Positions 36,598 through 63,934 of a stretch of 64,000 nt of DNA are shown piece after piece. The notes under the pieces are model-generated. The model was given only the letters and a program-made list of their open reading frames with translations, did no database searches and was not told where the DNA came from. Origin of the DNA: Bradyrhizobium lupini (GTDB lineage Bacteria > Pseudomonadota > Alphaproteobacteria > Rhizobiales > Xanthobacteraceae); assembly GCF_040939785.1 (NCBI RefSeq), contig NZ_CP162553.1, forward strand, positions 434,001-498,000. The letters are read 5' to 3'. The translations under genes were made by a program, and so were the position numbers. The stretch's first letter is position 1. The number at the start of each line of letters is the position of its first letter.

Positions 36598-37860
36598 CTA
36601 TTGGACCGGACGCCGGAAGATCACCGACGCGTTGGTACCGCCAAAACCGAAAGAATTCGACAACGCGACGTTGACCTCGCGCTTCTTCGCCTTGTGCGCC
36701 ACGAGATCGATCGCAGTCTCGACCGATGGATTGTCCAAGTTGATGGTCGGTGGCACGACATTATCGCAGATCGCGAGAATGGCGAAGATCGCCTCGATCG
36801 CGCCAGCCGCACCCAGAAGGTGACCGGTCGACGATTTGGTCGAGGACATCGCGACCTTGGAAGCGGCATTGCCGAGCAGACGTTCGACCGCACCGAGCTC
36901 GATCTCGTCACCGAGCGGTGTCGAGGTGCCGTGCGCATTGATGTAGTCGAGATCGGACGCGGTGAGGCCGGCGCGCTTGAGCGCTGCCGCCATGCTGCGG
37001 AAGCCACCGTCGCCGTCGGGTGACGGCGAGGTGATGTGGTAGGCATCGCCCGAGAGACCGTAGCCGATCACCTCGGCATAGATCTTCGCGCCGCGGCGCT
37101 CGGCGTGTTCGAGCTCTTCCAGGACCAGAACGCCGGCGCCCTCGCCCATCACGAAGCCGTCCCGGTCCTTGTCGTAGGGACGCGAGGCCTTCTCAGGCGT
37201 TTCGTTGAAGGCTGTCGAGTGCACGCGCGGCGTTGAAGCCGGCAATGCCGATGCGGCCGATCGGCGATTCCGCGCCGCCCGCAACCATGACGTCGGCATC
37301 GCCGAGCGCGATCAGGCGGGCGGCATCGCCGACCGCGTGAGCGCCGGTCGAGCAGGCCGTGACCACCGAATGGTTCGGCCCCTTCAGCCCATGCTTGATC
37401 GAGACATAACCGGAGGCGAGATTGATCAGGCGGCCCGGAATGAAGAACGGCGAGACCCGGCGCGGCCCGCGTTCCTTCAGCAGGACCGCAGTCTCGGCGA
37501 TACCGTTGAGGCCGCCGATGCCGGATCAATCATGGTGCCGGTGGCGCATTTATCCTCTTCGGTCTCGGGATGCCAGTTGGCATCGTCGAGCGCCTGGCCG
37601 GCTGCGGCCATGCCGAAGATGATGAAGTCGTCGACCTTGCGCTGGTCCTTCGGCTCCATCCAGATGTCGGGATTGAAAGTGTCGTTGGTGCCGTCGCCGC
37701 GCACGACCGTGCAGCCGATCTTGGTCTGAAGATCGGAGACATCGAAGCTCTCGATTTTGCGTGCGCCGCTTTCGCCGTCGAGGATGCGCTTCCAGGTCGG
37801 CTCGACTCCGCAGCCGAGTGGCGAAACCATGCCAAGACCCGTAACGACAACCCGCCTCAT
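36598..37860 (-). CDS. fabF: 3-oxoacyl-ACP synthase II (KAS II), frame broken twice
   Basis: The condensing enzyme of fatty-acid elongation. N-terminal part [16 protein letters not shown]; the active-site Cys motif VTACSTGAH lies in the middle segment; both catalytic His regions ([11 protein letters not shown] and [12 protein letters not shown]) are in the C-terminal segment. One base is missing near 37527 and two near 37218; together they total three bases and restore the original frame. The complete product is about 421 residues, as expected. This gene is normally essential, and sequence error is the simplest explanation. Confidence 0.93.
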
Positions 37861-37901
37861 GTCCGAAAACTCCGCATCGAAAGATTCACGGCCAATAACA
37901 A

Positions 37902-37940
37902 GAAACCGGCTGACCGCTGTTGGGCGGTCCGTCCGGTTTC
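37902..37940 (-). terminator. Hairpin between acpP and fabF
   Basis: GAAACCGG (37902-37909) pairs with CCGGTTTC (37933-37940), and the inner GACCGC/GGCGGTC pairing lengthens the stem. On the minus strand it is followed by TTGTTATT, a weak T-tract, so it may terminate part of the acpP transcripts before fabF and raise acpP over fabF. Confidence 0.65.
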
Positions 37941-37968
37941 AATGTTGTCCCCGCGAAAATGAAGAGCG

Positions 37969-38208
37969 TTAGCTCTTCGCGTTCTTCTCGAGAAACTTGG
38001 TGGCGTCGCCGACGGTGAGAATCGTTTCCGCGGCATCGTCCGGAATCTCGCAGCCGAATTCCTCTTCGAACGCCATCACCAGCTCGACGGTGTCCAGACT
38101 GTCGGCGCCGAGGTCGTCGATGAAGCTCGCAGCGTCGACAACCTTCTCGGGTTCAACACCAAGGTGTTCGACCACGATCTTCTTAACCCGCTCGCCAATC
38201 TCACTCAT
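37969..38208 (-). CDS. acpP: Acyl carrier protein
   Basis: A 79-residue acidic four-helix protein. The phosphopantetheine attachment Ser is in [30 protein letters not shown] is the standard N-terminus. Central to fatty-acid and lipid A synthesis. Lies upstream of fabF and downstream of fabG, with its own 307-base upstream region. Confidence 0.97.
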
Positions 38209-38515
38209 TGCATAACCTCGTGTTGTTCCCTGTAGACCCGACCCCCCGGGACGATACGAGCCGTCGTGGTCGTTGACTGCCTTCGCTTACGAACTTTGAT
38301 CTGGCCCCATCCTAACCGATGCAGGCCCGGCGAATGACGGCCAAGGCTCCGCATCGCCAATATACAGGGTTTCAAAAACCTGCAATGGCGTTCTTTGCCC
38401 ATCCGTTGAAGGTCCGGTTATCATACTTCAATTGCGTTGACTACAAGCCTCATTTCGCTCCGGAAACGGCCGTTTGCCGCATTCGGCTGCCCAAGGGGCG
38501 GTGCGGCATGAGGCG
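38209..38515. promoter_or_regulatory. acpP promoter region
   Basis: A gene-free 307 bases between fabG and acpP. It must contain the acpP promoter, as expected for such a highly expressed gene. I see no clear hairpin or operator. A small plus-strand open frame (38319-38567) is not credible. Confidence 0.5.
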
Positions 38516-39253
38516 TCAGATCATGGCCATGCCGCCGTTGACGTGGATGGTTTGGCCGGTGACATAGGCCGCTTCGTTCGAACTCAGGTAGACGGCGGCC
38601 GCCGCGATGTCCTCTGGCGTCCCCAGGCGATTGGCCGGAACCTTGGTCAGAATCGTTTCGCGCTGCTTGTCGTTGAGCGCATCGGTCATCGGGGTCTTGA
38701 TGAAGCCGGGAGCGATGCAGTTCGCGGTGACGCCGCGCTTGGCGTATTCGGCACCCAGCGTCTTGATCATCCCGATCAGGCCTGCCTTCGACGCAGTATA
38801 ATTGCCCTGCCCCGGGTTGCCGGTGACGCCGACCACCGAAGTGATGGCGATGATGCGGCCGAAGCGCTTGCGCATCATCAATTTGGTTGCGGCGCGGGCA
38901 AGGCGGAAGGTCGAGGTCAAATTGATGTTGATGACCTCCTCCCAGTCCTCGTCACGGAGCTGCACGAAGAGATTGTCGCGCGTGATGCCGGCATTGGCGA
39001 CGAGGATGTCGACCTGTCCCATCGCCGCCTCCGCAGCGGGCACCAGCGCTTCGACCTCCTCGACTTTGGAGAGATTGCAGGGCAGCACATGGGTGCGCTC
39101 GCCGAGCTTGCCTGCAAGCTCATCCAGCACTTCCTTGCGCGTCCCCGATATCGCGACGGTGGCGCCCTGCGCGTGCAGCGCCTGCGCGATCGCGCCGCCG
39201 ATGCCGCCGGTTGCGCCGGTGACGAGCGCCTTTTTGCCAGTCAGATCGAACAT
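38516..39253 (-). CDS. fabG: 3-oxoacyl-ACP reductase
   Basis: 245 residues of the short-chain dehydrogenase family: NADPH motif VTGATGGIGGA near the start, NNAG-equivalent VANAGITRDNL, and the catalytic Ser and Tyr-x-x-x-Lys in ITSVVG and NYTASKAG. Reduces beta-ketoacyl-ACP. ATG at 39253 follows TTGGAGGAGTTATCG; the in-frame extension to 39319 is not taken. Confidence 0.96.
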   Translation of the reverse strand: MFDLTGKKALVTGATGGIGGAIAQALHAQGATVAISGTRKEVLDELAGKLGERTHVLPCNLSKVEEVEALVPAAEAAMGQVDILVANAGITRDNLFVQLRDEDWEEVININLTSTFRLARAATKLMMRKRFGRIIAITSVVGVTGNPGQGNYTASKAGLIGMIKTLGAEYAKRGVTANCIAPGFIKTPMTDALNDKQRETILTKVPANRLGTPEDIAAAAVYLSSNEAAYVTGQTIHVNGGMAMI

Positions 39254-39355
39254 CGATAACTCCTCCAAGGCACGATCCGGAAACGCGCGCAGCGGTTTTC
39301 CGAAAGGGTCGTGCGTCAACTGTAGAACTCGCGCGCGACGACGAATTATCGCGCT

Positions 39356-40315
39356 TCAGGCCTGCTTGGCAGCAGCCAATGCATCTTGGGCAGCAGCAAT
39401 GTCGTTGGGACCACCGACCGCAACGCCGACGGCACCGTCTGCGATACGCTTGACCAGGCCCGTCAGCACCTTGCCGGCACCGATCTCAAAGAAACGGGTG
39501 ACGCCCTGCCCCGCCATATAGGCAACCGACTCGCGCCACCGCACAGTGCCGGTGACCTGCTCGACCAGGCGCCGGCGGATCTCGTCGGGATCGGTGATCG
39601 CGCTCGCCAGCACATTCGACACCAGCGGGGCGGCCGGCGCCTTGATCGTGACCCCGGCCAGCGCCTCCGCCATTGCGTCGGCAGCCGGCTGCATCAGTTT
39701 GCAATGGAACGGTGCGGACACCGGCAGCAGCATTGCTCGCTTAGCGCCCTTGGTTTTGGCGATCTCGACGGCGCGATCGACCGCAGCCTTGTCGCCGGAG
39801 ACGACCACTTGCCCGCCGCCATTGTCGTTGGCGGCTTGGCAGACCTCTCCCTGAGCGGCCTCCTCCGCCACCGCCACGGCGGCCTCGTAGTCGAGGCCGA
39901 GCAGAGCGGCCATCGCACCGACGCCGACCGGCACAGCTTTTTGCATTGCGAGACCGCGGATGCGAAGCAGCCGCGCCGTGTCGGAAATCGTCAGGCTGTC
40001 GGCCGCGGCCAGCGCCGAATATTCGCCGAGCGAGTGGCCGGCGACGAAGGCCGCATCCCGCCGCACGGAAAACCCGGCTTCGGCCTCCAGCACCCGCAGG
40101 GTGGCGATAGACACCGCCATCAGGGCCGGCTGGGCGTTTTGGGTGAGCTGGAGGGTTTCAGCCGGACCATCCCAGATGGTCGCCGTCAGCTTCTCCCCCA
40201 GCGCGGCATCGACCTCGTCGAACACGGCGCGCGCCACCGGAAAGGCATCGGCCAGGGCCTTGCCCATGCCGACCGCCTGGGAACCCTGCCCCGGAAATGT
40301 GAATGCTGCCGTCAT
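39356..40315 (-). CDS. fabD: Malonyl-CoA:ACP transacylase
   Basis: 319 residues: FTFPGQGSQAVGMG at the start, the nucleophile motif GHSLGEYSALAA, and conserved later segments (PVSAPFHCKLMQPA with the catalytic His). Loads malonyl groups onto ACP. The start at 40315 (MTAAFTFPGQG) is chosen over the in-frame ATG at 40405 because the family begins at that motif. fabD-fabG-acpP-fabF order is canonical. Confidence 0.96.
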   Translation of the reverse strand: MTAAFTFPGQGSQAVGMGKALADAFPVARAVFDEVDAALGEKLTATIWDGPAETLQLTQNAQPALMAVSIATLRVLEAEAGFSVRRDAAFVAGHSLGEYSALAAADSLTISDTARLLRIRGLAMQKAVPVGVGAMAALLGLDYEAAVAVAEEAAQGEVCQAANDNGGGQVVVSGDKAAVDRAVEIAKTKGAKRAMLLPVSAPFHCKLMQPAADAMAEALAGVTIKAPAAPLVSNVLASAITDPDEIRRRLVEQVTGTVRWRESVAYMAGQGVTRFFEIGAGKVLTGLVKRIADGAVGVAVGGPNDIAAAQDALAAAKQA

Positions 40316-43377: not shown

Positions 43378-43586
43378 CGACCTAGTTTCTCATAAGGCTT
43401 CCGGGTCGTCCGGTCGCCGATGGTTGGGGCGAGATGCCTCTAACCGCTCGTTTGAGCGAAGAGAATTTTCTTCAACAAAATCAACGCATCCGCCCCCATC
43501 AGTTCACGTTGCGTACTGGGTTTTTCGGACCGTTTCTGCTACGAAACTGCTACGGTCGGGTGGCCCTTGGACCAGTGAGACGTCGC

Positions 43587-44549
43587 ATGCGCTCCGACGA
43601 CAGAACCGTCTACGGATTGGAAGCACCGCTGAGGCTCGTGGCTTCGCACGACATCGCCCAGCCCGGTTTCCAGTCGGCGCGCCGCGGCGAGTTCGTCCTC
43701 ATGGGGGCTTCGTCTCAAGACGCCTCCACTGAGATCGTCCTTCGGGACCTGACCATCCTTGGCGTGCCTCTCGCCAAGTTCGTGCTGCGGAGCCCGAGCG
43801 GTGATACCCGGCTTCTCCGGGTCGACTTCGATCGCGCCATGACCGAAGCGGACGCGTTCTCGTTCATTCAACGCCTCGCCGATGCCTGGTCGGCGACGCT
43901 CGCCGATGGCCAGCGCGATCCATGGTACGGCAACCTCTACGTCGACATCCGTTGGGCGGGCGTGAAGACAATTACGGCTCACAGCGGCGGGATCACGGCC
44001 TCTACGCAGATGACCTCCATCGAGAACGTCGCCGTCACGCCGGCGCTTCTTTCCGCCATGCGGTGGTCGCCGCTCACCGACGTGTTCGTCGAGGGCATGA
44101 AAGCGTCGCAGCCGAAGTCGAAGTTCCTGTTCTGGTTCGTCCTTTTGGAGGAACTGGAGAAGCGGGAGGAGTTCCTGTCCCTGTTTACGCCGATGTTCTC
44201 GGCTGAGCACAAGGCGCAGTTGCAGGACGCCGTGCGCTCGAACGGTCCGGCGCTGCAGCGCCTGAACAGTCTATTAAACAATCCGACGACGACGCTTGAG
44301 GGCCGTGCGGCGAAGCTTGCCCGCATCGTCGTAGAAGTGGGAGGCTCCAGCATCGACGGTCTGAGCGGGCCGATCGTCGTGGACCAGGCGCGCTGCGCCG
44401 CCCTGATCGAGCAGCGCAACAAGGTCGCCCACAAAGGATCGAGCATCGACAGGGATCTACTCTACACGGTGCTCTTCCCTCTCAGCCGCATCGCGCTCAA
44501 GTACATTCTCGACCGGGACGCCGGGACCGTAAGCGAACCTCGACCCTGA
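43587..44549 (+). CDS. Hypothetical protein with C-terminal HEPN-type RxxxxH motif
   Basis: 320 residues, starting MRSDDRTVYGLEAPLRL; in-frame upstream sequence from 43434 lacks coding character. The N-terminal about 200 residues are beta-rich and match nothing I know. The C-terminal part is helical with LIEQRNKVAHKGSSID: RNKVAH fits the R-x4-H catalytic motif of HEPN-fold RNases and related domains used in toxin and defence effectors. It converges on the GAP1 gene of the GTPase operon. Whether it belongs to that system is inference. Confidence 0.65.
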   Translation: MRSDDRTVYGLEAPLRLVASHDIAQPGFQSARRGEFVLMGASSQDASTEIVLRDLTILGVPLAKFVLRSPSGDTRLLRVDFDRAMTEADAFSFIQRLADAWSATLADGQRDPWYGNLYVDIRWAGVKTITAHSGGITASTQMTSIENVAVTPALLSAMRWSPLTDVFVEGMKASQPKSKFLFWFVLLEELEKREEFLSLFTPMFSAEHKAQLQDAVRSNGPALQRLNSLLNNPTTTLEGRAAKLARIVVEVGGSSIDGLSGPIVVDQARCAALIEQRNKVAHKGSSIDRDLLYTVLFPLSRIALKYILDRDAGTVSEPRP

Positions 44550-44795: not shown

Positions 44796-46847
44796 TCACC
44801 ATTGGATCGCGTGCTTCACAATCCTAAGCCGCTCGCCGCCCATGCCAGCGTCGCTCATGCGGTTCCGGATCGCCTTGAGGTATCGCTGGCTTCCGAACTT
44901 CTCCGACAAAGCTGCGATCAGTTCAAAGAATATATCATCCCGGGCGGTGATCGCTACGAATGCGAGGGCGTCGATTCCACGGTCAAGGTACATCTTCACG
45001 ACGGTATGCCGGATCCGGACGCACTTGTCCCAATCGTACCACCAGTATGAGCGATCGAGCCGGCGATCGAGAATCCGCCACGCGTCCTCAGGCAATGTGC
45101 GCTGCTCGGCCGCGTCGTAGACGACGTCGAACGTCGCCTGAACAAGCTCGACACTATTCATCGTGCGCCGTCCGAGCGCCCGCACTAGCAGGAAAGACGC
45201 AAGGTATGCGTTCCTCAGCGGCGTCGAAAGTCGCCTGATGGCAAGGAGCCAGGGGTCGTCGCCATAGGCGTTCGGCACTGCATCCGGTGCTACCACATGA
45301 GCGATAGCTTCGAGTGTCTCCACGTCGTCGACCCAATCCTCGACGAGAATGCGCGCAACCGCATCCACGTCTGAAGCCGCTGCAGAAAGCCACGAGGAGC
45401 GGATTCCATCTTCTATCGTCGGATCGCCAAACCGCGCGAGCAGTCTTCGGAGTACGAGATCGCTTCCGAAAGTTGCGCGCGCTTCTCGATACAGGGGCCG
45501 GCCCGACCGGATCATTGCGTCGATCACTCCATCGAACAAGCCCGGTGATTTTTCGATGATTTGAAAGACATCTGGCTTCGTGGCTCCTTCGAGCAGCCAC
45601 AACCCGGGCTCTCTCGCCAAATCGGGTCTTGCCCCCAGCAGCTCTACCAGATGCGTCGGCGTCGAGGTGATGCCTTCAAGGAGAGACGCTGGCGGCATCG
45701 TGACGATGGCCCGCTCTGCAATCACGCCTCTCGCGGGATCGGACCGTATATCGAACAGAGCCTTCGGATCGACTCGCCAAAGCGCCCACCCAACTCGCTC
45801 CGCAGCGGCATCTGATTCGGCAGGATCGATCAGTCCGAAATTACGCACGACAAACTGCAAACCTTCGGTCCCCAGAGAGTCGGCGGCGTTCGCGGCCACC
45901 CTGACTATGGACGAGCGCGCAGCGTGCCCTTGGTCAATCGACATCGTCCGCTCCAAGAGCGATATTGCACGCTCGACGGCGGAAGGATCGAGGTCGAAGT
46001 GCAGCGAAAGTGCGTGCAGGGTCGCCAGTGGTTCGAATGATTCCCGACCGCCCACGTCACTGCCCGCCGCGCGCAGAAAGCGACGCAGGCTGCCCTCGGG
46101 CCCCTCCTTCAGATCCACGACCGCATCCTCCAGCCACTCGGTCGTGTCGAACTTTCGACGGTCGGCGTCGATAGCGCTCTTGAACTGCCCGGGCCTCAAC
46201 CGGCCGTTCGCCGGCAGAAACTGAAGGTCGAACGTCGCATTGAGAGAGGATCGGTCGGCGAACGAGAGCGTGCAGAAACGAAAGGCGCGCCTCAGCCGCG
46301 GCCATTGCTGATCCCAAATTGCCAGCGCCAGCGTCTCGCGCGCCCGCACGTCGGCGGCAACCGAAACAATAGGCCTGGTAGGGTCACCGTAGACTGCGGA
46401 CAGTATCCGCCGCGCGAAGTCGTCGGACATGCCAGTTCGATCATCGTCCTCCGCCATCGACACGTATTCGATGCCAGTCCCGTAAGATCGCTCGTCGCCC
46501 TGAGGTCGCCGGAACAGTTTCAGGATTCCTCCCGCGCCGCGGACCGACGGAATGTCGCTGAAGTCGATCAGGATCGTGTGCGTCCAAACACAGCCCGGGC
46601 GCGGCAATTCTGGCGCAGGCCATGTGCGCGCCAGCGCATAGTGGCCACTTTCAGGCAGTGGATAGCCGGTCAGGTACCCCTCCGCGCCAATCGTCGCCGC
46701 CGGGCCAGATGCGTCGCTCATCATAAGCAACGTCTTCGCATCTCGCGGCGGCAGATCGATCGACGAGGCGAGCAGCCGATGACCTTCCGAGTAGCCATGG
46801 AGCGTCTGCTGCAACGGCAACCGACGGCCATTTACTCCGTGAGCCAT
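44796..46847 (-). CDS. GTPase-associated protein 1 (GAP1)-like
   Basis: A 683-residue protein. The N-terminus QQTLHGYSEGHRLLASS (residues 13-29) and the following WPAPELPRPGCVWTHTILID segment are what I recognise as the N-terminal domain of GAP1 proteins, defined from operons with double GTPases. The middle and C-terminal regions are long helical repeats without enzyme motifs (for example VFQIIEKSPGLFDGVIDAMI), compatible with a scaffold. Last gene of the five-gene operon; its start overlaps the preceding GTPase gene by 16 bases. Domain names are from memory of the Pfam GAP1-N1/M/C families. Confidence 0.75.
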   Translation of the reverse strand: MAHGVNGRRLPLQQTLHGYSEGHRLLASSIDLPPRDAKTLLMMSDASGPAATIGAEGYLTGYPLPESGHYALARTWPAPELPRPGCVWTHTILIDFSDIPSVRGAGGILKLFRRPQGDERSYGTGIEYVSMAEDDDRTGMSDDFARRILSAVYGDPTRPIVSVAADVRARETLALAIWDQQWPRLRRAFRFCTLSFADRSSLNATFDLQFLPANGRLRPGQFKSAIDADRRKFDTTEWLEDAVVDLKEGPEGSLRRFLRAAGSDVGGRESFEPLATLHALSLHFDLDPSAVERAISLLERTMSIDQGHAARSSIVRVAANAADSLGTEGLQFVVRNFGLIDPAESDAAAERVGWALWRVDPKALFDIRSDPARGVIAERAIVTMPPASLLEGITSTPTHLVELLGARPDLAREPGLWLLEGATKPDVFQIIEKSPGLFDGVIDAMIRSGRPLYREARATFGSDLVLRRLLARFGDPTIEDGIRSSWLSAAASDVDAVARILVEDWVDDVETLEAIAHVVAPDAVPNAYGDDPWLLAIRRLSTPLRNAYLASFLLVRALGRRTMNSVELVQATFDVVYDAAEQRTLPEDAWRILDRRLDRSYWWYDWDKCVRIRHTVVKMYLDRGIDALAFVAITARDDIFFELIAALSEKFGSQRYLKAIRNRMSDAGMGGERLRIVKHAIQW

Positions 46848-47718
46848 GCGATCGGCTCCGTAAGATCTCTCGACAGTTCGGGCATCATCAACCGGATACG
46901 CTCCGAAGCGTCGTCAAGCGCGCGGATCTCGGCGACTCTCTCGTTACGGTCTGCATCGTCGGTCGCCCCGTCTCGTTCAAAGTCTCCGCCCTGAGCGCTC
47001 AACCCGTACACGCGCAGGTCCCAACGATCAACGCCATGCCGGAGGTACTGATCAAGCAGAGGGAGTTCGGATGCGAGGTATTGCTCGGGCGTTACAGTGC
47101 CTCCGTCCTCCTCGACCTTGTCCCATGCGGAGAGCACAACGGCAAGACGACGTGCTGGAGCCTGGAGCGCGTCGCTTCGGAGCATCTGCAACATCTCGAC
47201 GAGTTGCACGGCGGTCGGGGCGTCCTTCGGATGCCAATCCTCGAACGAGCCCGCGTCGGCCGCTCCCCCTCTAGTCCCGCAGCATACTGCGTCGTCTCAG
47301 CTACGCCGATGGGGCGCTTGATCTTGTCGGCGTGGACGAAGAGCAGAATGCCGTCACACGCGCGCAAAAGCTGTGCCAACTCGGGATCACACTCCCTGGC
47401 TTCCCACATCTGCTGGAAGGACTCGCCGGAAAGATCCGGGAAAGTTATCCGGACACGACGGCCCGATCCGTCCTTGAGATTCATCGACACGATCTTGCCC
47501 GACGCGACCTCCGTATGGATCTGCTCCTTGGCCTGTAGCCAGCGACGCATGATCTCGTTCAGATGCGAGTGGTCGAGACCGATCAGGGAATCGAACTTCA
47601 GGCGCGCGTCCAGATCTCGTTTATCGAAGACCACGAACCACAACGCGGCCAGAAACGTCGTCTTTCCCGACGCCGGCAGGCCGCAGATGACGACCGATCC
47701 CTCGGATTTTTCCGTCAT
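46832..47718 (-). CDS. P-loop GTPase, double-GTPase 1-like, frame broken once
   Basis: About 295 residues once corrected. Walker A is in VVICGLPASGKTTF, residues 9-22. The Mg/DxxG region TFPDLSGESFQQ follows. After the break, VVLSAWDKVEEDGG carries an SAWDK base-specificity-like motif. One base is missing near 47262: the frame through GEGER-P-T should continue as AGSFEDWHPKDAPTAVQLV instead of terminating in a random Arg-rich tail. Start ATG overlaps the stop of the upstream GTPase (ATGA), and the stop overlaps the GAP1 start. Confidence 0.75.
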
Positions 47719-48715
47719 TCCGGCGATCCCTGTAGGCGGTGCATGAACCTCGTCGCCGACGAGACGTGGCCAGGCGGCTTTGGTATCGCCCCATGGGCGG
47801 TCTCTTCCCAATACGCCAACAGGTCGGCCACGCCGTGCCCCAGCGGAAGGGAAGTGTCCGAAGGGCAAGCCGCCACCTCGAACGATCGGATTTCCCCGAA
47901 GGAGCCAGAGTGCAGTTCGCGGAATTTGGCTTCGATCTTCGTGAAATCGCGCTTCGCACGCTCCTTGTCTGCCGATCTCTCGATCTCATCGAGCTTCGTG
48001 AGCACCAGGGCGGCGCGCGGCCTTCCTCGATTCCCCCGCCGTCGACCAACGCCTGGACGATCGCGAGCATCTCGGAGCCTACCGTGTTGCGGGTCACCGG
48101 ATCGACCAACTGCCGCCCGTCGACCAGAAACGTAATCGTGTCGGCTCGAAGTATCTCGACGAACTCCCTGACGGCACCCGTCTCATCGGCGGCGGAGCCG
48201 TAATCCTCCCCGTTTCGGTCCGCGACGACGAGGTCGAGCACATCCTCGCCGGGTCTGCGCAGGGCGGCATGGTAGAATTTGACCGAGGTCAGTAGCGTGC
48301 GCTCGGTCTTCGGACGAGCGTTGCGCGACACGCCACGGGACGGATGGCAGGCTCGTTCGAATGCGTACATCGTCCGCGAGCCGGCGAACCCGAACAACCC
48401 GATCGGACCGCGAAGGAAGAGTTCGAAGATGGACGTGATCAAGGTGGTCTTACCCGCGTCCTTTGGAGCGACGACGGCAATGACGCGCGAGGCCCCGCGC
48501 CGCAACACTCGCGACGCCTCCTCCTGATCCAAGAGGTCGCCCGACGGAAGGACAATCCCGAGCCGTTCCACCTGGACAGCGCCGTTCGACGGCGGTGCCG
48601 ATAGCGGCTTGCCGTAGTGTGGGCACTTGTCCTTCTCCAGACCCTCGACACATCGGCCGTCGATCCTCACCTTGCAGGCGGTATTGGCACATTGGATTAC
48701 GGCGGCTTCTGCCAA
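47715..48715 (-). CDS. P-loop GTPase with N-terminal zinc-ribbon-like Cys set, double-GTPase 2-like, frame broken once
   Basis: About 333 residues once corrected. Cys9, Cys14, Cys22 and Cys31 at the N-terminus look like a small zinc-binding module. The P-loop APKDAGKTTL is at residues 83-92, and VVADRNGEDYGS is the switch II-like segment. After a one-base deletion near 48018 the frame continues as VLTKLDEIERSADKERAK, where TKLD is the base-specificity motif. Start is 3 bases after the GASH stop. Both P-loop and TKLD are intact, so the break is likely a sequence error. Confidence 0.75.
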
Positions 48716-48718
48716 GGC

Positions 48719-49819
48719 TTACTCCCCGAATTTCAGGCCAAGCCGCTCGCGATAGAAGAGGTTGCCGAGTTCGATGCCCGGCAAGGCCGCCTCTGCGCCG
48801 ATACCCGTCACGGCGGACCAGTTCGCGGCCCAGGACGTGTCATCGCCGGCCTCCAGTTTGCGATGGATGGCGAAGTGCAGAGGGCGGACGAGCGGCGCGG
48901 GCTCGACACCTTCGACGAATTCGCGAAGCAGCTCGGCGTCGCAGGCGTTGACGGCTGCGGCTACTCCCGTCTTCTTGCGTTCCTTGAGGCCCGCCCGGGA
49001 AAGTATCGGCTTCACGGATTCGGGCCCGGGCATGAACTGGGTGGCGTCAGCAAGCTCGGATGCCAGAATTATCGGTTGGGCATCCGCCGGAACGTCGGCA
49101 AACGGCATATCCAGCTTCTTGCTGCGACCGCCGAAGAGCCACCAGAGCAATTGAAGTTCTTCGTCCTGAATCGCGGCGAAGTGCTCCATCGCCTGAATTG
49201 CGGCACCCGCCTTGACTGTCATGTCGCGCGCAGCGGCGTTCGCCTGGGCCGCGACGACGTTGATTGCAGCAACAACGGTTTCGTGCGTGACGCCCTGCTT
49301 GAGCTTCTCAATCGTGTCCGAATCCACTCCGAAACGTCCGACCTGACCCAGCCGCGGCAGAGCAGGTCGGGTTCGCCGTCGCTCGGATATCCTCGCGATC
49401 GCCGCCTCCGCCGCCGCGTCGAAATCGTACGGAAAATCCGTCCTGCGGACGCCAGCGAAGAGAGCAATGCTGGTAGCCAGCGCGGCCTTCGCCGCGACGT
49501 CGTCGGTTCCCTCCAGCACCGTCGCCAGCGCCGCTCCGCACAGAACCTCGAGTTCGCGGTCGTTGTTTGACATCTCGAACAGGTCGTCGGCGGCCTTGAA
49601 GTGGCCGCGCAACTCCGCCATCGTATCCGCGTCGGGCTGCGTCCTGGTCTTCACCAGCACGGCGAGCATGGTGTCGATGATGCCGACATCCGCAGCATCG
49701 ACCAGTGACGAGACGCCTTTCCACCTGGCGTCAAGTCGCGCCCGGTTCTCGCCGACGTCGACCACGCGATACCAGCGCGGAAACTCGTCCCTCATCGGCA
49801 GAACGCCCTCCTCGGCCAT
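48719..49819 (-). CDS. GASH-like helical protein of the GTPase system
   Basis: 366 residues, almost all helix, with no membrane segment and no enzyme motif. The central part (CGAALATVLEGTDDVAAKAALATSIALFAG, LRRLGQVGR-type 'ALPRLGQVGRFGVDS', LQLLWWLFGGRSK) is what I recognise as the GTPase-associated system helical domain. Start overlaps the phosphoesterase stop (TGATG), so translation is coupled. Likely an adaptor between GTPases and the other parts. Confidence 0.7.
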   Translation of the reverse strand: MAEEGVLPMRDEFPRWYRVVDVGENRARLDARWKGVSSLVDAADVGIIDTMLAVLVKTRTQPDADTMAELRGHFKAADDLFEMSNNDRELEVLCGAALATVLEGTDDVAAKAALATSIALFAGVRRTDFPYDFDAAAEAAIARISERRRTRPALPRLGQVGRFGVDSDTIEKLKQGVTHETVVAAINVVAAQANAAARDMTVKAGAAIQAMEHFAAIQDEELQLLWWLFGGRSKKLDMPFADVPADAQPIILASELADATQFMPGPESVKPILSRAGLKERKKTGVAAAVNACDAELLREFVEGVEPAPLVRPLHFAIHRKLEAGDDTSWAANWSAVTGIGAEAALPGIELGNLFYRERLGLKFGE

Positions 49820-51114
49820 CAGCGCTTCTCCCTCTTCGCGATTTCACGATCCAATTCGTCGAGCTGACGGCGCTCGCCCGCCCTCAACAGGGCCCGGCCG
49901 AACCTTTCGGCGAGCGGCAGGTTCGCCTCGTCCGGCTCGATCAGCTTCAGCTTGCGCGATATTTCGCGCCGGTCGCTCATATCGAGGTTCCAGAAGCGCA
50001 GCACGATGCTCCGGGCGCGATCTTCTGACATGACTGCCTCCATGCCATCCGGCGATCGGTCGACGACCGGCGTTGCCGGCGCGGCGACCATAGCTGGCGG
50101 CCTCGGATTTACGTTCCTCAGTCTAACATCAGCATGATGAATGTCGCAGTCGTCGTCCTTGATCGGCTTGAACCCTTCGGGACTGGTCTGCCATTCAAGC
50201 AAGTGAGCAGCGACCTCAAGCTGCGGCTGCCCGGCTTTGTTCTTGCCGAGCGAGAGGCCGATGATGTTGTATCCTGGTCTCCAATCCTTAGCCTGACGTT
50301 CCGGATTCACGGCACCGGCGTAGAACGTGACGTACTTCGGGTCACGCACGATGCGTTGGCGATGCTTGTGGCCGAAGAGGTGAATGGAGCATCGACCGTT
50401 GACGTCGTCGGCGACGCGGTCTCCGTCAATCAACCAGTCCGGCGGGTGGTGACACATCACCAGGTTCACGACGTCGTCGACCGGGTCGAGAGCCGTCTGC
50501 TGCGGCTCGACGTAGAGATCCTTTTCCACATCGTTCTCGCCCTCGGGCGTACGCCAACCTGACAGGATGGTCGAGTTCAGGCCGTAGATGCGCAGCGTCA
50601 CGCCGTCGCCAAACGGGAGGTCCGATTTCCAGAACATGCGCTCGGGAGCGAAGATCGCGCCCGAAAAGCGCAAGGCGAACTCGTTGTAGGCAGCGATCGG
50701 TCTCAGTAGCGCCGGACCCGTCTCGGCATGCTGCAGTTGCCTTTGAAGCTGCCATTCCTTGTCGTCCGCGCTCTTGGCGTTAACGACGGCGCGCTGTGCG
50801 TTCTGAACGGATAAGTCCTTGCGGATGACGTCGCGGTCGACGTCATGATTCCCGGGTATGACGAAGATGCGCGTCCGGTCGCATCCGCAGGCGTCGGCAA
50901 GCTCGTACAGCCATTTCAGGGCGGCTTCGTATTCTTCCGGCTTCCCCGCAAACGCGATGTCCCCGCCGACCAGGAGCGCGTCGACAGAGCCGAGCGTCTT
51001 CACCCGCTCCCTCGCATCCTGGATCAGGCGGGTGCGGAACGGCCGGTCCGGGTCCCGGTCGGTATTGCAGATCGGATGACGAAAATGAATGTCCGATACG
51101 TGAAGTAAAAGCAT
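49819..51114 (-). CDS. Calcineurin-like phosphoesterase with C-terminal adaptor-type domain
   Basis: 431 residues. Metallophosphoesterase motifs in order: D8-x-H10 in HVSDIHF, GD at 51-52 in LLVGGDIAF, GNHD at 88-91, HH at 222-223 in CHHPPDWL and GHKH at 248-251. A linker (about 300-355) leads to a C-terminal helical module (about 360-431: SIVLRFWNLDMSDRREISRKL) of the size of the GTPase-associated adaptor domain. First gene of the operon. Substrate could be a nucleotide, nucleic acid or phosphoprotein; sequence does not tell. Confidence 0.85.
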   Translation of the reverse strand: MLLLHVSDIHFRHPICNTDRDPDRPFRTRLIQDARERVKTLGSVDALLVGGDIAFAGKPEEYEAALKWLYELADACGCDRTRIFVIPGNHDVDRDVIRKDLSVQNAQRAVVNAKSADDKEWQLQRQLQHAETGPALLRPIAAYNEFALRFSGAIFAPERMFWKSDLPFGDGVTLRIYGLNSTILSGWRTPEGENDVEKDLYVEPQQTALDPVDDVVNLVMCHHPPDWLIDGDRVADDVNGRCSIHLFGHKHRQRIVRDPKYVTFYAGAVNPERQAKDWRPGYNIIGLSLGKNKAGQPQLEVAAHLLEWQTSPEGFKPIKDDDCDIHHADVRLRNVNPRPPAMVAAPATPVVDRSPDGMEAVMSEDRARSIVLRFWNLDMSDRREISRKLKLIEPDEANLPLAERFGRALLRAGERRQLDELDREIAKREKR

Positions 51115-58828: not shown

Positions 58829-59095
58829 ATGAGACTCGCGAAACTGCACGCCCTTGCAGTGGCTCTCGCCATGGTCGCGCCTCCCGCTCTTGCTGGCCCT
58901 TACTGCCAGCCGAGCAACGGTCGTGATCAGATCGCTAAAACCGGCAACGTGTGTCCGGTCGGATATCTGGCCTCGGGAACGTGCTGCGTCGCGCTCCATG
59001 CGGACTCGGCACGGGCCTTTGCCCGTTTACCCGGCCGCGCATGCCCGACCGGTTCATTCGCCAGTAGTGGCGTCTACTGCGTGTCGTTTCGCTAG
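58829..59095 (+). CDS. Small secreted Cys-rich protein
   Basis: 88 residues: signal peptide MRLAKLHALAVALAMVAPPALA, then six Cys in about 60 residues (YCQPSNGRD, NVCPVGYLASGTCCVAL, RACPTGSFASSGVYCVSF), implying disulphides and an extracytoplasmic role. The ATG at 58829 follows AAAAAGGTGATC. The gene end overlaps the stop of the convergent resolvase gene by 4 bases. Confidence 0.7.
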   Translation: MRLAKLHALAVALAMVAPPALAGPYCQPSNGRDQIAKTGNVCPVGYLASGTCCVALHADSARAFARLPGRACPTGSFASSGVYCVSFR

Positions 59096-59652
59096 GCGGC
59101 GGACTCCGGTCCTGTTTCCAGCGCACGATAGACGGATGCACGGCCGATCTTGAGTTGCTTCGCGATGGCTGCCGGGCCGACGCCGGCCGCTTTCAGCTCT
59201 CGTACCTTCGCCCCGTCGATCGACGGCTTACGGCCCTTGTAGACGTTGTTCGCTTTGGCCTTGGCGATTCCCTCAAGTTGACGCTCTTTCCGGAGGTTGG
59301 TTTCAAACTCCGCGAACACGCCAAGCATATCGAGGAACGCCTTGCCGGCTGCCGTGCTGGTATCGACCGACTGCTCAGTCGCCCTCAGAGCGGCACCCTT
59401 CGCTTTGATCTCGCGGACGATATCTTGAAGATCGCCGATTGACCGTGCCAGCCGGTCAACGCGAGTGACCACAAGCACGTCACCCTTGCGCATGAAGTCC
59501 AGCACCGTCCGAAGCTCATCGCGTCCCGCGGTCGTCGTGCCGGAGCGCTTTTCAGTCCTGATGATTTCACAGCCGGCAGCCCGGAGGGCATCCTCTTGGA
59601 TGGTCAGGTCCTGGTCGATGGTGCTGACGCGAGCGTATCCGATAACGGTCAT
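59092..59652 (-). CDS. Serine recombinase (resolvase/invertase family)
   Basis: 186 residues. Catalytic Ser10 in GYARVSTIDQ, further active-site segments (VVTRVDRLARSIGDL, FAEFETNLRKERQLEGI) and a C-terminal helix-turn-helix (AAIAKQLKIGRASVYRAL). Size and layout are those of Tn3-type resolvases and Hin-type invertases. A three-part res-like site lies directly upstream. ATG at 59652 is chosen over 59694, which would begin inside the res-like site. It resolves cointegrates, inverts a segment, or resolves dimers of a plasmid-like element. Confidence 0.92.
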   Translation of the reverse strand: MTVIGYARVSTIDQDLTIQEDALRAAGCEIIRTEKRSGTTTAGRDELRTVLDFMRKGDVLVVTRVDRLARSIGDLQDIVREIKAKGAALRATEQSVDTSTAAGKAFLDMLGVFAEFETNLRKERQLEGIAKAKANNVYKGRKPSIDGAKVRELKAAGVGPAAIAKQLKIGRASVYRALETGPESAA

Positions 59653-59664
59653 GGAGCGGGCCTC

Positions 59665-59781
59665 TGTCTCATTTGCCTCTAGACCATGAGACAATGCCGT
59701 CTCAAATATCCAGAGTCAACCCTATTGAGACACTTTTTTCGTCTCATCGCGTTGCCTCGCTTCCGTATACCCATGTGAGAC
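59665..59781. promoter_or_regulatory. res-like site: three inverted GTCTCA/TGAGAC pairs
   Basis: Subsite I: TGTCTCAT (59665-59672) against ATGAGACA (59686-59693). Subsite II: GTCTCAA (59699-59705) against TTGAGAC (59725-59731). Subsite III: GTCTCA (59741-59746) against TGAGAC (59776-59781). Six copies of one hexamer in inverted pairs, directly before a resolvase start, is the arrangement of a res site; it also overlaps the resolvase promoter, so autoregulation is expected. Confidence 0.75.
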
Positions 59782-60112: not shown

Positions 60113-60586
60113 GGCATGATCCTTCCATGGGCCGCGCCAGATACGGCACAGCCCTCTGTTGATGATCGATGCGGCGCGTTGCGATGAGCACGGTCCCCGA
60201 CGAGGCGGAGGCGCACAGGTCTCATGACGAGACTTCGCGGCAGCACATAGGCTCAGCATCTTCGCTGCGCAAGGTTTCGCCCGCGTCGCGCATGCCACCG
60301 GGCTGTCAAGGTTTCCCAGCGCTCGCGAGCGCGGGAGGGGTGAAGGCGAAAGTTTTTGGGCGCATGGCCCCGGCATTGGCTGAGCGGTTCTGACCAGCCA
60401 CCAACAAAAGGCGGACTTTCCCCAGGCCTTCAGATGCCCCCCGCCATCACGGGAGGTTCATGCATCCGCACCCACCCCCGAAACAATCGGGCGTCACCAT
60501 TTTCCGCGCCGTATGAGCGCATTTTCCAAAAGACGATTTGCTTCGTCACCGTCCGCGCGATCGGCGCGCCAACAACAAGAGAACAC
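60113..60586. other. Gene-free stretch upstream of the tape-measure gene
   Basis: No credible gene. GCGCTCGCGAGCGC (60319-60332) is a perfect 14-bp palindrome. The rest should hold the promoter of the tape-measure gene. Confidence 0.4.
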
Positions 60587-63500
60587 ATGTCAGAGATCAT
60601 CAGCGTTCACGCATCATTGACCGCGACCGACAGCGCGAGCCCCGTCATCGCCGGACTTCTCCGGAACGTTCGCAAGCTTGAGGCCGCAGTCAAGTCCATC
60701 AACGGCATCTCAGCATCCAAGCTGTTTCCCGACAGTATCTCAGCCGGCCTCCAGAAGATCACCGACGACGCTCGGAAGGCTGCGTCGACCTATCGCACTG
60801 AATGGAAGTCGGCCTATGCGGACAGCCTGCGTGACGCGCGGGCGTTCCATCGTGAGTTGGACCGCCTCGACCGGCAGACCTTCAATCGCCGGCAGGCGGA
60901 GCAACGTGCCGTTGATCGCGGTGCGAGGTCCGCCAGCCGAGGCACGTCTTCCCGCGGAATCTCCCCCACCACGGCGCTGATCGCCGGAGGCATCACCGTC
61001 TCGGGCGTCGCATCCGCGTTCAAGAAACGCATGGAAGCCAACGTCGCCGAGACCAAGGCGCAAATCTTCGGCGGATTGTCCGCAGCAGAAGTGAAGCAAC
61101 TTCGAGGCGACTTTAGTGACAAACTGGCTATCCGATTTGGCGAGAGTGCCGCCACAGTGTTGGATAGCTACACTGAGGCGTTGAAGCAGGGCTTTGACGG
61201 TTCTGCCGCGAAAAAGATCACCGAGAACGCACTTGAAGCGTCATCTGCGCTCGAAATGAACATCGGTGAACTGATGCGGCTCGCGGGCAAAACCGCCACC
61301 TCCCTCTATGGCAACGTCCGGAACGCCGATCCTGCCCGCGTTGCCAGAATGATGACCTCGGTTGCTGTTGCCGCCGCTGCGACCGCCGCAGACCCGAACG
61401 AAGTGGTTGAGGCGAACAAGCGTGCCCTGTCCGCCTTGAGCACGACGAAGATGAAGGAAACCGACCTGAGCGCCTTCACGTCAGTTGGCATCTCGGCAGG
61501 TCTACAGCCGAATAAGGCCGGCACATTCCTCGGTTACTTGACCTCGGAATTTGCAAACGCCGGCAACGCTCGCGGCCAGCGCGGGAAAGATCTGGACCAG
61601 GCTGCACGGATGATCGGGTACGGCGGTCGGGCGCAGATGGCTCAAAGGATGGTGTCGGATCCAACCAACTTCACCTTGGACATGTTTCAGAAGATGCGGA
61701 ACATGAGTGAGCAGAACCGGGCCAAATTCGCAAACCTCGCAGGCATGCGGGAGTGGCGCGACGAACTAGTACAGATGGCCAAGGCCTCCGATCAAATCCG
61801 GGAGACGTTGAAGGAAATCGACCAGAAAAGCGACGCGGTGTCCGCGTTCTCCCGCACTAAGCTCAACTCGCTTCAGAAGCGCTGGGACCGCATCAAAGCG
61901 ATGTTTGGCCTCGCCTGGGAAAAGTTCGGAAGTGGATTCGAGCAAAGCTTCATCGAGGTGTCGGACTGGTTCGATAAGCACACCAGCATCGTCACCTCCA
62001 GCAGGATCGCGGAGAAGTCGCGAGAGTTTGTCGAGAGGCTAAAAAAGGCCTTCGGTGTCGCCAACATGGGCGACGCACTCGACAAAATCGCCGCGAAACT
62101 GTCGTCCGTAGACGTAGACAAGATCATCGGATTCGTGTCGGGCTTCGCGGGCGGGCTCAGGTCTGTCTTCGATACCATCACCACCCTGCTGAAGAGCTTC
62201 GCCACTGCGATGGGCAAGGACGGCAATAGTGCCGAAGTCCTGGGGAGGCTGACCGGGCAGATTGTTGCCTTGTCCGTCGCGCTCGGAACACTCGCTCCGG
62301 TCTTGGCCGTGTTCACCGGCTTAGTGGGCATCATCGGCCGCATCGCGGGCCTGCTCGGTGGTCGGGCGTTGCTCGGTGCTGCGAGCGCCAACCCTGTTGG
62401 CACCGCCGCCCTGCTCGCGTGGCTCCTCGCGGAGAACAACGACACTGGCCTATCGGATGCCTCAAAGAAACGGCCGGGCGAGACGACAAGCCAATGGCGA
62501 GAGCGTCAACGCCAGCACAAGAAAGACCTGTACCAGAAGCAGAGTGGCGATGGCTTCAACCCCGCGGACGTTCACCCGATGAGCTTCATCGGGAACAAGC
62601 TGGACAATCTCGGTGGGAAGATCGAACGCGCCTCGTTCATGAGCACTGACTTCAGTTCCCGCGGTCGCACCTACAGAAGCGGCGGAGGACTGAGCGGCAG
62701 CGCAGCGATCGGCGCCAACATGAACCGGATCGTCAGCGGTGTCGGCACTCCCGATGCACTGTGGAAGAAGGTAATGCCGGGTGGCGTCCTTCCGAACTTC
62801 GGTGTTGGCTCTGGCGGCATCATCAAGCACAGCAACATCCCTTCGTTCAACGGTGGAGGTGGCAGCGTTGACGATATGAGCAGGTCGGCCTTCGATAACA
62901 AGTTCGCCGGCACTCCTCTTGCAGGCAAGTACGATCAGATCGTCGCGGCAGCAAGAGCCAACGGCATCTCGCCTGCGCTGCTGGCCGGCGTGATCGCGCA
63001 CGAAACCGGCAACGGTCATGTGCTGTCGGGAAACAACGTGGCAGGGCTGATGGACCCCGCAACCGGCATGGCGAAAAAGATGCAATTCGCCAGCCTCGAC
63101 GGGGGTATCAGCCGGGCGGGCCAAGTGGTCGCGAAGAACTACCGTCTGGCCGGTGGCAACCTCGACAAGATGGGCGAGCGCTATGCACCGGTCGGTGCCG
63201 CGAATGATCCACGTAGGTTGAACGGTGGCTGGCCCGCGGGCGTGCGCAAGCAGATGAATGCGCTGTCCGGCGGTGGATCAGCCGGCAGCGGCGATGCCCT
63301 TGCATGGGCCGAAAAGTACAAGGGCATGAACGAGCATACCGACAACCGAGTGTTAGCGGCGGCCCTTGGCGGCGACGTGCGCGGCAAGTCGAATGCTTGG
63401 TGTGCTCGCTTCGTCAACAAGGCGTTGGAAGCCGCCGGGGGTAACGGCACAGGCAGCGCGGTGGCGAACAGCTTCCAGAAGTGGGGCTCCGCGATCAGCC

Positions 63501-63934
63501 CGCCCGAGGTCAAGCGCAATGACGTTCTGCTTCAGACGCACGGCCTTGGTTACAATCAGCCCGGTGGCCACGTAGGCCTCGCGACAGGCGAGACCCGCAT
63601 GCAAAACGGCCGACTGCAAATCAAGATGCTGGCCGGCAATGACGGAGACTCGGTGCGTGAGCACTGGATCGACGCCGACAAGAACCTGATGGTTCGTCGC
63701 GGCAATCCCATCGGTCAGGTCCCGTCGCCGGCTGACGTGGTCAAGAACGTTCCTGCTGCTCCGCAGTCCGGCATCCCGATGAGGGGTGACTTTGGCGGTG
63801 GTGGTCGTGGCAACGTCGCGATCCACATCAACGGTGGCTCGCACGATCCGGAAGCTCTGGCCACCCTGGTCCAGCGCCGCGTCGACGAGAAGATGAACTG
63901 GCGCGCTCACGACAGCGAGTCCGAATACACCTAA
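60587..63934 (+). CDS. Phage tail tape-measure protein with two peptidoglycan-hydrolase domains
   Basis: 1115 residues from ATG 60587. N-terminal helical tape region with long coiled-coil-like helices (about 1-550), a hydrophobic segment of phage tape measures near 560-600 (LSVALGTLAPVLAVF, GIIGRIAGLLGGRALLG), a lytic-transglycosylase/lysozyme-like domain near 780-870 (YDQIVAAARANGISPALLAG, AHETGNGHVLSGNNVAGLMD, the Glu of AHETG likely catalytic) and a CHAP/NlpC-like domain near 935-1010 (SNAWCARFVNKALEAAG, PGGHVGLATG: the Cys and His needed for catalysis). The tail end is Gly-rich then charged. It sets tail length and helps DNA entry through the cell wall. No other tail genes are visible upstream; any neighbours would be beyond 64000. 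Confidence 0.9.
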   Translation: MSEIISVHASLTATDSASPVIAGLLRNVRKLEAAVKSINGISASKLFPDSISAGLQKITDDARKAASTYRTEWKSAYADSLRDARAFHRELDRLDRQTFNRRQAEQRAVDRGARSASRGTSSRGISPTTALIAGGITVSGVASAFKKRMEANVAETKAQIFGGLSAAEVKQLRGDFSDKLAIRFGESAATVLDSYTEALKQGFDGSAAKKITENALEASSALEMNIGELMRLAGKTATSLYGNVRNADPARVARMMTSVAVAAAATAADPNEVVEANKRALSALSTTKMKETDLSAFTSVGISAGLQPNKAGTFLGYLTSEFANAGNARGQRGKDLDQAARMIGYGGRAQMAQRMVSDPTNFTLDMFQKMRNMSEQNRAKFANLAGMREWRDELVQMAKASDQIRETLKEIDQKSDAVSAFSRTKLNSLQKRWDRIKAMFGLAWEKFGSGFEQSFIEVSDWFDKHTSIVTSSRIAEKSREFVERLKKAFGVANMGDALDKIAAKLSSVDVDKIIGFVSGFAGGLRSVFDTITTLLKSFATAMGKDGNSAEVLGRLTGQIVALSVALGTLAPVLAVFTGLVGIIGRIAGLLGGRALLGAASANPVGTAALLAWLLAENNDTGLSDASKKRPGETTSQWRERQRQHKKDLYQKQSGDGFNPADVHPMSFIGNKLDNLGGKIERASFMSTDFSSRGRTYRSGGGLSGSAAIGANMNRIVSGVGTPDALWKKVMPGGVLPNFGVGSGGIIKHSNIPSFNGGGGSVDDMSRSAFDNKFAGTPLAGKYDQIVAAARANGISPALLAGVIAHETGNGHVLSGNNVAGLMDPATGMAKKMQFASLDGGISRAGQVVAKNYRLAGGNLDKMGERYAPVGAANDPRRLNGGWPAGVRKQMNALSGGGSAGSGDALAWAEKYKGMNEHTDNRVLAAALGGDVRGKSNAWCARFVNKALEAAGGNGTGSAVANSFQKWGSAISPPEVKRNDVLLQTHGLGYNQPGGHVGLATGETRMQNGRLQIKMLAGNDGDSVREHWIDADKNLMVRRGNPIGQVPSPADVVKNVPAAPQSGIPMRGDFGGGGRGNVAIHINGGSHDPEALATLVQRRVDEKMNWRAHDSESEYT

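Follow-up and report, generated by a model that had tools for sequence, protein, structure and literature searches.

A GAP1-N1-type double-GTPase operon on a genomic island of Bradyrhizobium lupini and the predicted longin-DENN-like fold of its GAP1 protein

What restrains the two GTPases encoded in a family of widely distributed operons with a predicted immune role, for which we found no published mechanism, is the question raised by an operon of Bradyrhizobium lupini (NCBI RefSeq assembly GCF_040939785.1, contig NZ_CP162553.1). The window, by which we mean the whole stretch of DNA analysed, comprises 64,000 nucleotides (contig positions 434,001 to 498,000), and an inspection of its open reading frames (ORFs) reveals that the operon occupies positions 44796-51114 of the minus strand as five genes arranged head to tail. 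Pfam gives a name to every product, namely Metallophos plus GAAD, GASH, DO-GTPase2, DO-GTPase1 and GAP1-N1. Judged by these products, the operon is a GAP1-N1-type double-GTPase system as predicted by Kaur et al. 2020 (PMC7159879) and, as such, of a type already known. New here is the reading of GAP1 as a longin-DENN-like protein with an arginine finger; this regulator module, absent from a preliminary description of the locus made from the sequence alone, is the most informative part of the operon. The joint reading at which we arrive, and which we consider about as probable as its opposite, is that of a double-GTPase operon on an integrated mobile island, most likely anti-phage (abortive), in which GAP1 would serve as a GTPase-activating brake. 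The features on which the argument draws are as follows (pLDDT, predicted local distance difference test; pTM, predicted template modelling score).

44796..46847, minus strand: GAP1, 683 amino acids (PF20012, 105 bits, cut-off 27; AlphaFold2 pLDDT 88.6)
45954..46823, minus strand: predicted longin-DENN-like module, GAP1 residues 9-298 (AlphaFold2 pLDDT 93.1, pTM 0.91; Foldseek and VIA matches)
46599..46601, minus strand: codon of R83, candidate arginine finger in the beta4-beta5 loop (conserved in both GAP1 alignments, A1 and A2, and in the Pfam-drawn loci, all described below)
44799..45953, minus strand: helical solenoid, GAP1 residues 299-683, candidate sensor or scaffold (DSSP; weak ARM/HEAT-type matches)
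46832..47248, minus strand: C-terminal piece of DO-GTPase1 in another frame, G4 motif SAWD, SAQGG (PF19975, 119.6 bits)
47263..47718, minus strand: N-terminal piece of DO-GTPase1, P-loop GLPASGKT, G3 motif PDLSGE (PF19975, 121.8 bits)
47715..48005, minus strand: C-terminal piece of DO-GTPase2 in another frame, G4 motif TKLD (PF19993, 21.8 bits, below the cut-off of 27)
48020..48715, minus strand: N-terminal piece of DO-GTPase2, zinc ribbon and P-loop DAGKTT (PF19993, 123.7 bits)
48719..49819, minus strand: GASH all-helical protein, 366 amino acids (PF19994, 63 bits, cut-off 27)
49819..51114, minus strand: metallophosphoesterase effector, 431 amino acids (PF00149, 44.8 bits; NCBIfam DS8_antiphage, 77.7 bits)
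49837..50013, minus strand: GAAD adaptor domain, C-terminal residues 368-426 of the effector (PF19976, 45.4 bits, cut-off 23.6)
43438..43450, no strand: left 13-bp direct repeat of the operon-carrying island (right copy beyond the window at G000:C1:499959-499971)

The N-terminal module of GAP1 finds its best structural matches, by Foldseek and VIA, in the longin-DENN proteins DENND1A/1B, C9orf72 and FLCN and in TagF, whose structure is the best VIA match of all. Foldseek assigns the comparison with DENND1A an E value of 1.8e-5, and DENND1A and DENND1B align with the module along its entire length (249 residues, 5.9 Å, calculated on the predicted model). The module is thus predicted to consist of a longin domain and, C-terminal to it, a DENN alpha/beta lobe, and we call it DENN-like rather than a member of the DENN family because sequence homology is undetected. 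Compared to the five-stranded sheet of DENN proteins, the second lobe of the model contains three strands of at least 3 residues, with helices following them.

In this model, R83 is located between beta4 (residues 69-77) and beta5 (residues 87-95). Its conservation was followed in two alignments, A1, consisting of 46 GAP1 sequences drawn by protein search and not by the loop motif, and A2, whose 79 rows come from loci found with the motifs WxQQWPRL[RK] and RPGCVWTH and in which conservation of R83 and its loop is inflated. Arginine occupies position 83 in 46/46 sequences of A1 and 79/79 of A2, including all 12 A2 rows which lack the exact RPGCVWTH. An RPG-type loop is present in 113/113 GAP1 proteins having the HGYxxGH start, the seven of 120 proteins without this start being left out of the count, and R-x-G-x-V is kept in all of the 20 Pfam-drawn GAP1-N1 loci, a sample free of motif bias from which the own genome was left out and which includes lineages with RSGCV or RNGRV. 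Among the 29 elements of A2 the loop comes lowest in entropy (0.53 bits versus a mean of 2.32 bits), while in A1 it ranks third of 29 (0.35 bits), preceded by strand beta3 (0.09 bits) and the QQWPRLRR helix (0.33 bits), and surpasses every other loop in conservation. GAP1 thereby appears to have both the arginine in the beta4-beta5 interval and a conserved patch on the longin domain, the latter judged from sequence and not mapped on coordinates; for monomeric DENN proteins of the Avl9 class with this combination, the consulted part of a preprint (PMC12803157) proposes a function as GTPase-activating proteins (GAPs). Arginine fingers within longin domains, such as Arg147 of SMCR8 and Arg78 of NPRL2, are described in the consulted parts of PMC8213707 and PMC8534245. 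That GAP1 is a bacterial DENN-type GAP which would act via R83 on the paralogous GTPase pair, following the logic by which FLCN-FNIP and GATOR1 act on Rag GTPases and with TagF as a second branch, is a tentative reading whose chance we put somewhat short of even. We would like to note that in an alignment of TagF (A3) the arginine R93 (DRVGRYFPLT) is invariant and that, by sequence pattern, its position resembles that of R83.

Rather unlikely, in our estimation, is that GAP1 possesses the longin-DENN-like fold but works as an exchange factor or passive scaffold, the R83 loop being a docking site and GTPase catalysis intrinsic. Classical DENN proteins are indeed exchange factors of Rab GTPases (PMC3521125, as far as the consulted part of that paper goes), an R-T pair upstream of G3 occurs in the consensus sequences of both GTPases, and the WxQQWPRLRR segment of the second lobe, slightly more conserved in A1 than the loop, might offer a second GTPase surface. 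Against this, no other loop of the module is as strongly conserved as that of R83, in A1 as well as in A2, its position is one described for DENN GAPs and not for exchange factors in the part of PMC12803157 consulted, and GTPase1 of the window has HT in place of RT.

More doubtful still is that the fold match reflects a generic alpha/beta resemblance and that GAP1-N1/M is an unrelated domain binding something besides GTPases. Several searches weigh on this side and against a DENN-type GAP: a GAP1 profile run against the sequences of the PDB returned only two chance rows (E values of 0.61 and 2.5), a Pfam scan of the 46 A1 members yielded GAP1-N1 as the sole model shared among them, the TagF profile (PF09867) being listed for 0/46, and hhalign comparisons of GAP1 with TagF and with controls gave probabilities of 0.15-0.57%, none of them meaningful. 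Likewise, the matches listed by Foldseek for whole GAP1 were mainly ARM, HEAT and TPR repeats (best E value 0.011). Detectable sequence homology is, however, not required for a shared fold, and the alignment with DENND1A and DENND1B extends over the complete module.

The remainder of GAP1, residues 299-683, is helical according to DSSP and shows weak structural matches of the ARM/HEAT type. With a mean entropy of 2.01 bits versus 1.45 bits it is less conserved than the module, and comparison of GAP1 with its relative P0020 shows identity falling from 91% over N1 through 82% over M to 58% over the solenoid; the phosphoesterase of locus L139, which apparently belongs to the same genome as P0020, is 97.7% identical to the effector of the window. 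The preliminary description had suggested the N-terminal Cys set of GTPase2 as the sensor end of the system. All four Cys are present in the window copy, and at their positions 56, 56, 56 and 55 of 76 aligned sequences have Cys, the remainder showing mostly gaps. By its sequence, the set is the zinc ribbon described for GAP1-N1 systems, for which metal binding is predicted, and as a sensor by itself it was rejected; the faster-evolving C-terminal solenoid of GAP1 is a likelier candidate. This is a lead, weakened by closer GAP1 relatives, whose M and C parts have diverged to a similar degree.

The operon is tightly coupled, as the preliminary description had noted. A TGATG overlap at 49819 links phosphoesterase and GASH, a 3-base gap (48716-48718) separates GASH from GTPase2, whose start codon is TTG, and overlaps of ATGA (47715-47718) and of 16 bases (46832-46847) connect GTPase2 with GTPase1 and GTPase1 with GAP1, respectively. 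A promoter scan gave scores no better than those of shuffles. The start given in the preliminary description for the 683-residue protein has to be corrected, since it actually begins MAHGVNGRRLPLQQTLHGYS and QQTLHGYS follows from residue 13 instead of residue 1. Among the families named there, GAP1-N1, GASH, DO-GTPase1, DO-GTPase2 and GAAD are borne out by Pfam with scores far above chance level, except for the second DO-GTPase2 piece listed above, while GAP1-M and GAP1-C remain without Pfam match in the window products and the A1 members. A protein search with GASH retrieved 120 proteins at E <= 0.001, the window's own protein included.

A neighbourhood survey, which the preliminary description had proposed, shows that the families co-occur almost without exception in the loci examined. 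Starting from an alignment of GAP1, it comprised the best 80 of 163 loci from genome contigs, found with the above-mentioned two peptide patterns inside GAP1. GAP1 was labelled in 80, GTPase1 and GTPase2 in 78 each and GASH in 75 of them; a single gene order holds in 75/75 loci with all four core genes, and all five labels are present in 70/80, the effector label including adaptor-only matches. The exceptions are L033 and L068 with GAP1 alone, L058 and L069, which are cut by contig ends, and L057 lacking a recognised GASH. As to the GAP1 genes without recognised partners, that of L068, from Bradyrhizobium erythrophlei, is shortened to 538 amino acids, while that of L033, from Sphingomonas sp. 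OK281, is full-length. In the Pfam-drawn loci, GTPase1 lies beside GAP1 in 20/20 and GTPase2 plus GASH are found in 19/20 (the contig of L137 being cut), with the order GASH, GTPase2, GTPase1, GAP1 kept in 19/20; an upstream effector label is present in 16/20 and missing in L137, L142, L144 and L154. One locus of this sample (L133/L153) is apparently identical to L028 of the survey, and in L144 and L151, where our in-house profile left GAP1 unlabelled, the Pfam match stands.

The effector retains the metal motifs SDIH, GD, PGNHD, CHHP and GHKH, which are conserved in a 61-sequence consensus; the preliminary description had likewise called these motifs intact. Its match to DS8_antiphage covers residues 5-293, the cut-off of this model being 790. 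PADLOC lists three phosphoesterase-containing models for the effector as well as weak P-loop rows for GTPase1. A phosphoesterase match of at least 250 bits is present in 58/80 loci. From the other 22, 15 were scanned, whereas L033, L037, L058, L063, L068, L069 and L071 were left out because of a missing upstream gene or cut contigs; the effector of L057, scanned in addition to the 15, is a phosphoesterase. In L023 the effector slot holds a short protein whose sole domain is GAAD. In the remaining 14 loci the front domain is changed, and the GAAD match is kept in 13 of these (12 over the cut-off, L079 below). The phosphoesterase is exchanged for an alpha/beta hydrolase in L027, for a PNP-type phosphorylase in L059, L062, L064, L065 and L079, for SEFIR/TIR in L077 and L052 (the latter without GAAD match) and for a GNAT-like domain in L039 (just above the cut-off), L043, L044, L051, L053 and L076 (below the cut-off). 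That enzymes are swapped on a constant GAAD supports the reading of GAAD as an adaptor. A GNAT-like acetyltransferase on GAAD is an effector kind absent from the GAP1-N1 section of PMC7159879, and in the GNAT-type loci L039, L043, L044 and L076 GTPase1 is longer (407-450 amino acids).

Each GTPase gene is divided between two reading frames; the first piece holds the P-loop, the second the G4 motif. The two breaks reported by the preliminary description are present in the assembly, near 48.0 kb and 47.25 kb. Its proposal of a self-contained GTP-controlled response module fits our results; completeness and function of this copy are not borne out by the assembly, in which both GTPase frames are broken, probably by assembly error. 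A dead system with two genuine pseudogenes is improbable, although each GTPase is encoded by one uninterrupted frame in 16/16 congeneric loci uncut by contig ends, and frame changes also found between three congeners by the same procedure (3/32 alignments, two of them at 75-80% identity) led us to raise our estimate for it slightly. In this genome, frame changes occur in 6/21 flank ORF alignments versus congeners (14.2-43.1 kb), one of them doubtful at 75% identity, i.e. at no less than twice the control rate, and its completeness is 96.81 compared to 99-100 in the other single-contig congeners listed. In addition, the GTPase pieces are constrained on both sides of the breaks, the ratio of non-synonymous to synonymous substitution (dN/dS) versus L139 being 0.08-0.18 (0.18 for the C-terminal piece of DO-GTPase2, which is 91.7% identical, and 0.08 for that of DO-GTPase1). 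Since flank alignments change frame more often than controls and both sides of the breaks are constrained, assembly error appears the simplest reading and likelier than decay, which, also in view of the open congeneric frames, was rejected as the less likely explanation. The conserved flank ORFs 16041-18593, 18650-20602 and 36601-39704 change frame versus congeners, which suggests that indel errors are spread over the assembly. L051 is the only one of the 80 loci with a split GTPase1, and intact operon copies exist, e.g., in L114 on plasmid p172_1 of Bradyrhizobium sp. 172.

The source genome is a single 7.83-Mb contig, and the closest named relatives of GAP1 come from Bradyrhizobium. The operon lies within an island of about 22.5 kb downstream of and adjoining rpsR, extending from 43438-43450 to G000:C1:499971. 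These limits follow from the ends of congeneric matches together with the 13-bp direct repeats at both ends. The match to right-hand congeneric stretches ends at 43450, just past rpsR, in 5/6 cases and at 43378 in one; the continuation of congener L097 after the junction maps to G000:C1:499972-501912; and the repeat is also found at the junction of L097, L099 and L105, the stretch of L101 having ended before it. ORFs read as fragments of a tyrosine-integrase-like protein lie just inside the right end, and to the right of the island follow ORFs interpreted as encoding a membrane protein and ribosomal protein L9. The cargo includes a long phage tail protein (60356-63934, plus strand; PHROG 1259, 657 bits; PhageMin_Tail) and a serine resolvase (59092-59694, minus strand). 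GAP1-N1 was detected in 18/242 congeners, 1/149 family genomes, 2/385 class genomes and 4/398 phylum genomes, the window's own genome included each time, and on 29 plasmid records, of which 23 are conjugative and 3 cover at least 80% of the query; no GAP1 relative was found in the phage records searched. The least probable reading, a stress or housekeeping signalling module, is consistent with our finding no published immune phenotype for the family but conflicts with this patchy, island- and plasmid-borne occurrence, with swappable effectors of defence kinds, and with the relatedness of the effector domain to metallophosphatases of validated anti-phage activity.

At the left end of the island, a plus-strand ORF of 371 amino acids (43434-44549) converges on the operon and contains RNKVAH near its C-terminus, which fits the RX4H pattern of HEPN RNases. 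It has no Pfam or PHROG match and no relative among the ORFs of related loci, and was rejected as a component of the operon. Compared with L139, the proportion of silent differences (pS) rises along the operon from 0.15 in the phosphoesterase over 0.18-0.27 in GASH and GTPase2 to 0.38-0.59 in GTPase1 and GAP1, a gradient which suggests mosaic exchange inside the operon.

For GTPase pairing, GAP activity, sensing, effector substrate and defence role we infer the following course. The paralogous GTPases, of which one bears a zinc ribbon, would form a GTP-loaded pair constituting the switch, on which the longin-DENN-like module of GAP1 would act as GAP with R83 as arginine finger, thus keeping the pair off. 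Upon sensing of an infection cue by the C-terminal solenoid of GAP1 the brake would be released, and GASH together with the GAAD adaptor might pass the signal on to the phosphoesterase; this executor would then cleave nucleotides or nucleic acid. Should GAP1 prove to be a DENN-like GAP, the operon would gain a testable wiring of brake, GTPase pair, adaptor and swappable effector together with one residue to mutate. Furthermore, a type of regulator discussed mainly in eukaryotes would operate within bacterial defence, which bears on the origin of Rag and Rab regulation, and TagF, with its similar fold and invariant arginine, would have a GTPase target in type VI secretion.

The closest known counterparts are the GAP1-N1 systems, which the preliminary description had correctly traced to the computational account of conflict systems by Kaur, Burroughs, Iyer and Aravind (eLife 2020, PMC7159879). 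In its consulted parts, this paper describes the same set of genes, i.e. GAP1, GASH and two DO-GTPases, one bearing a zinc ribbon, along with variable effectors, most often a calcineurin-type phosphoesterase and often fused to GAAD, coupling being achieved by GAAD, EAD1 or fusion. The window operon resembles this system in full composition, which is a common configuration there. Unlike the reading of GAP1 put forward here, its main text makes no mention of DENN, longin, roadblock or GEF. As already held by the preliminary description, the function of the family is predicted only: PMC7159879 predicts a role in conflict, and in the literature searched, with preprints and subscription papers largely outside, we found neither an experiment nor a mechanism for GAP1-N1, no description of bacterial or prokaryotic DENN proteins, no link between TagF and longin among the matches listed, and only unrelated papers for DENN combined with phage defense.

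TagF, a regulator of type VI secretion, differs from GAP1 in its genomic role, and there is no profile-profile similarity between the two (hhalign, 0.15%). With the anti-phage metallophosphatases DS-8 and DS-9A found by DefensePredictor (PMC13092281) the effector shares a matching domain, at 77.7 and 61 bits, respectively, far below the full-length cut-offs. According to the consulted part of that paper, the related metallophosphatase domains of DS-8 and DS-9 are required for phage defence; DS-8 fuses its domain to NACHT and DS-9 is paired with a HAD phosphatase, whereas the effector of the window is combined with GAAD and GTPases. The longin-DENN regulators, finally, i.e. DENND1A/B, DENND10, C9orf72-SMCR8, FLCN-FNIP2, NPRL2 of GATOR1 and the Avl9 family, are like GAP1 in the predicted succession of a longin-like N-lobe and a DENN-like lobe and in the conserved loop arginine between beta4 and beta5. 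GAP1 differs from them in being bacterial, in its undetected sequence similarity, in its thin second lobe and in the helical solenoid fused to it. Its putative partners, a GTPase pair which we liken to the Rag GTPases acting as a heterodimer, are encoded next door.

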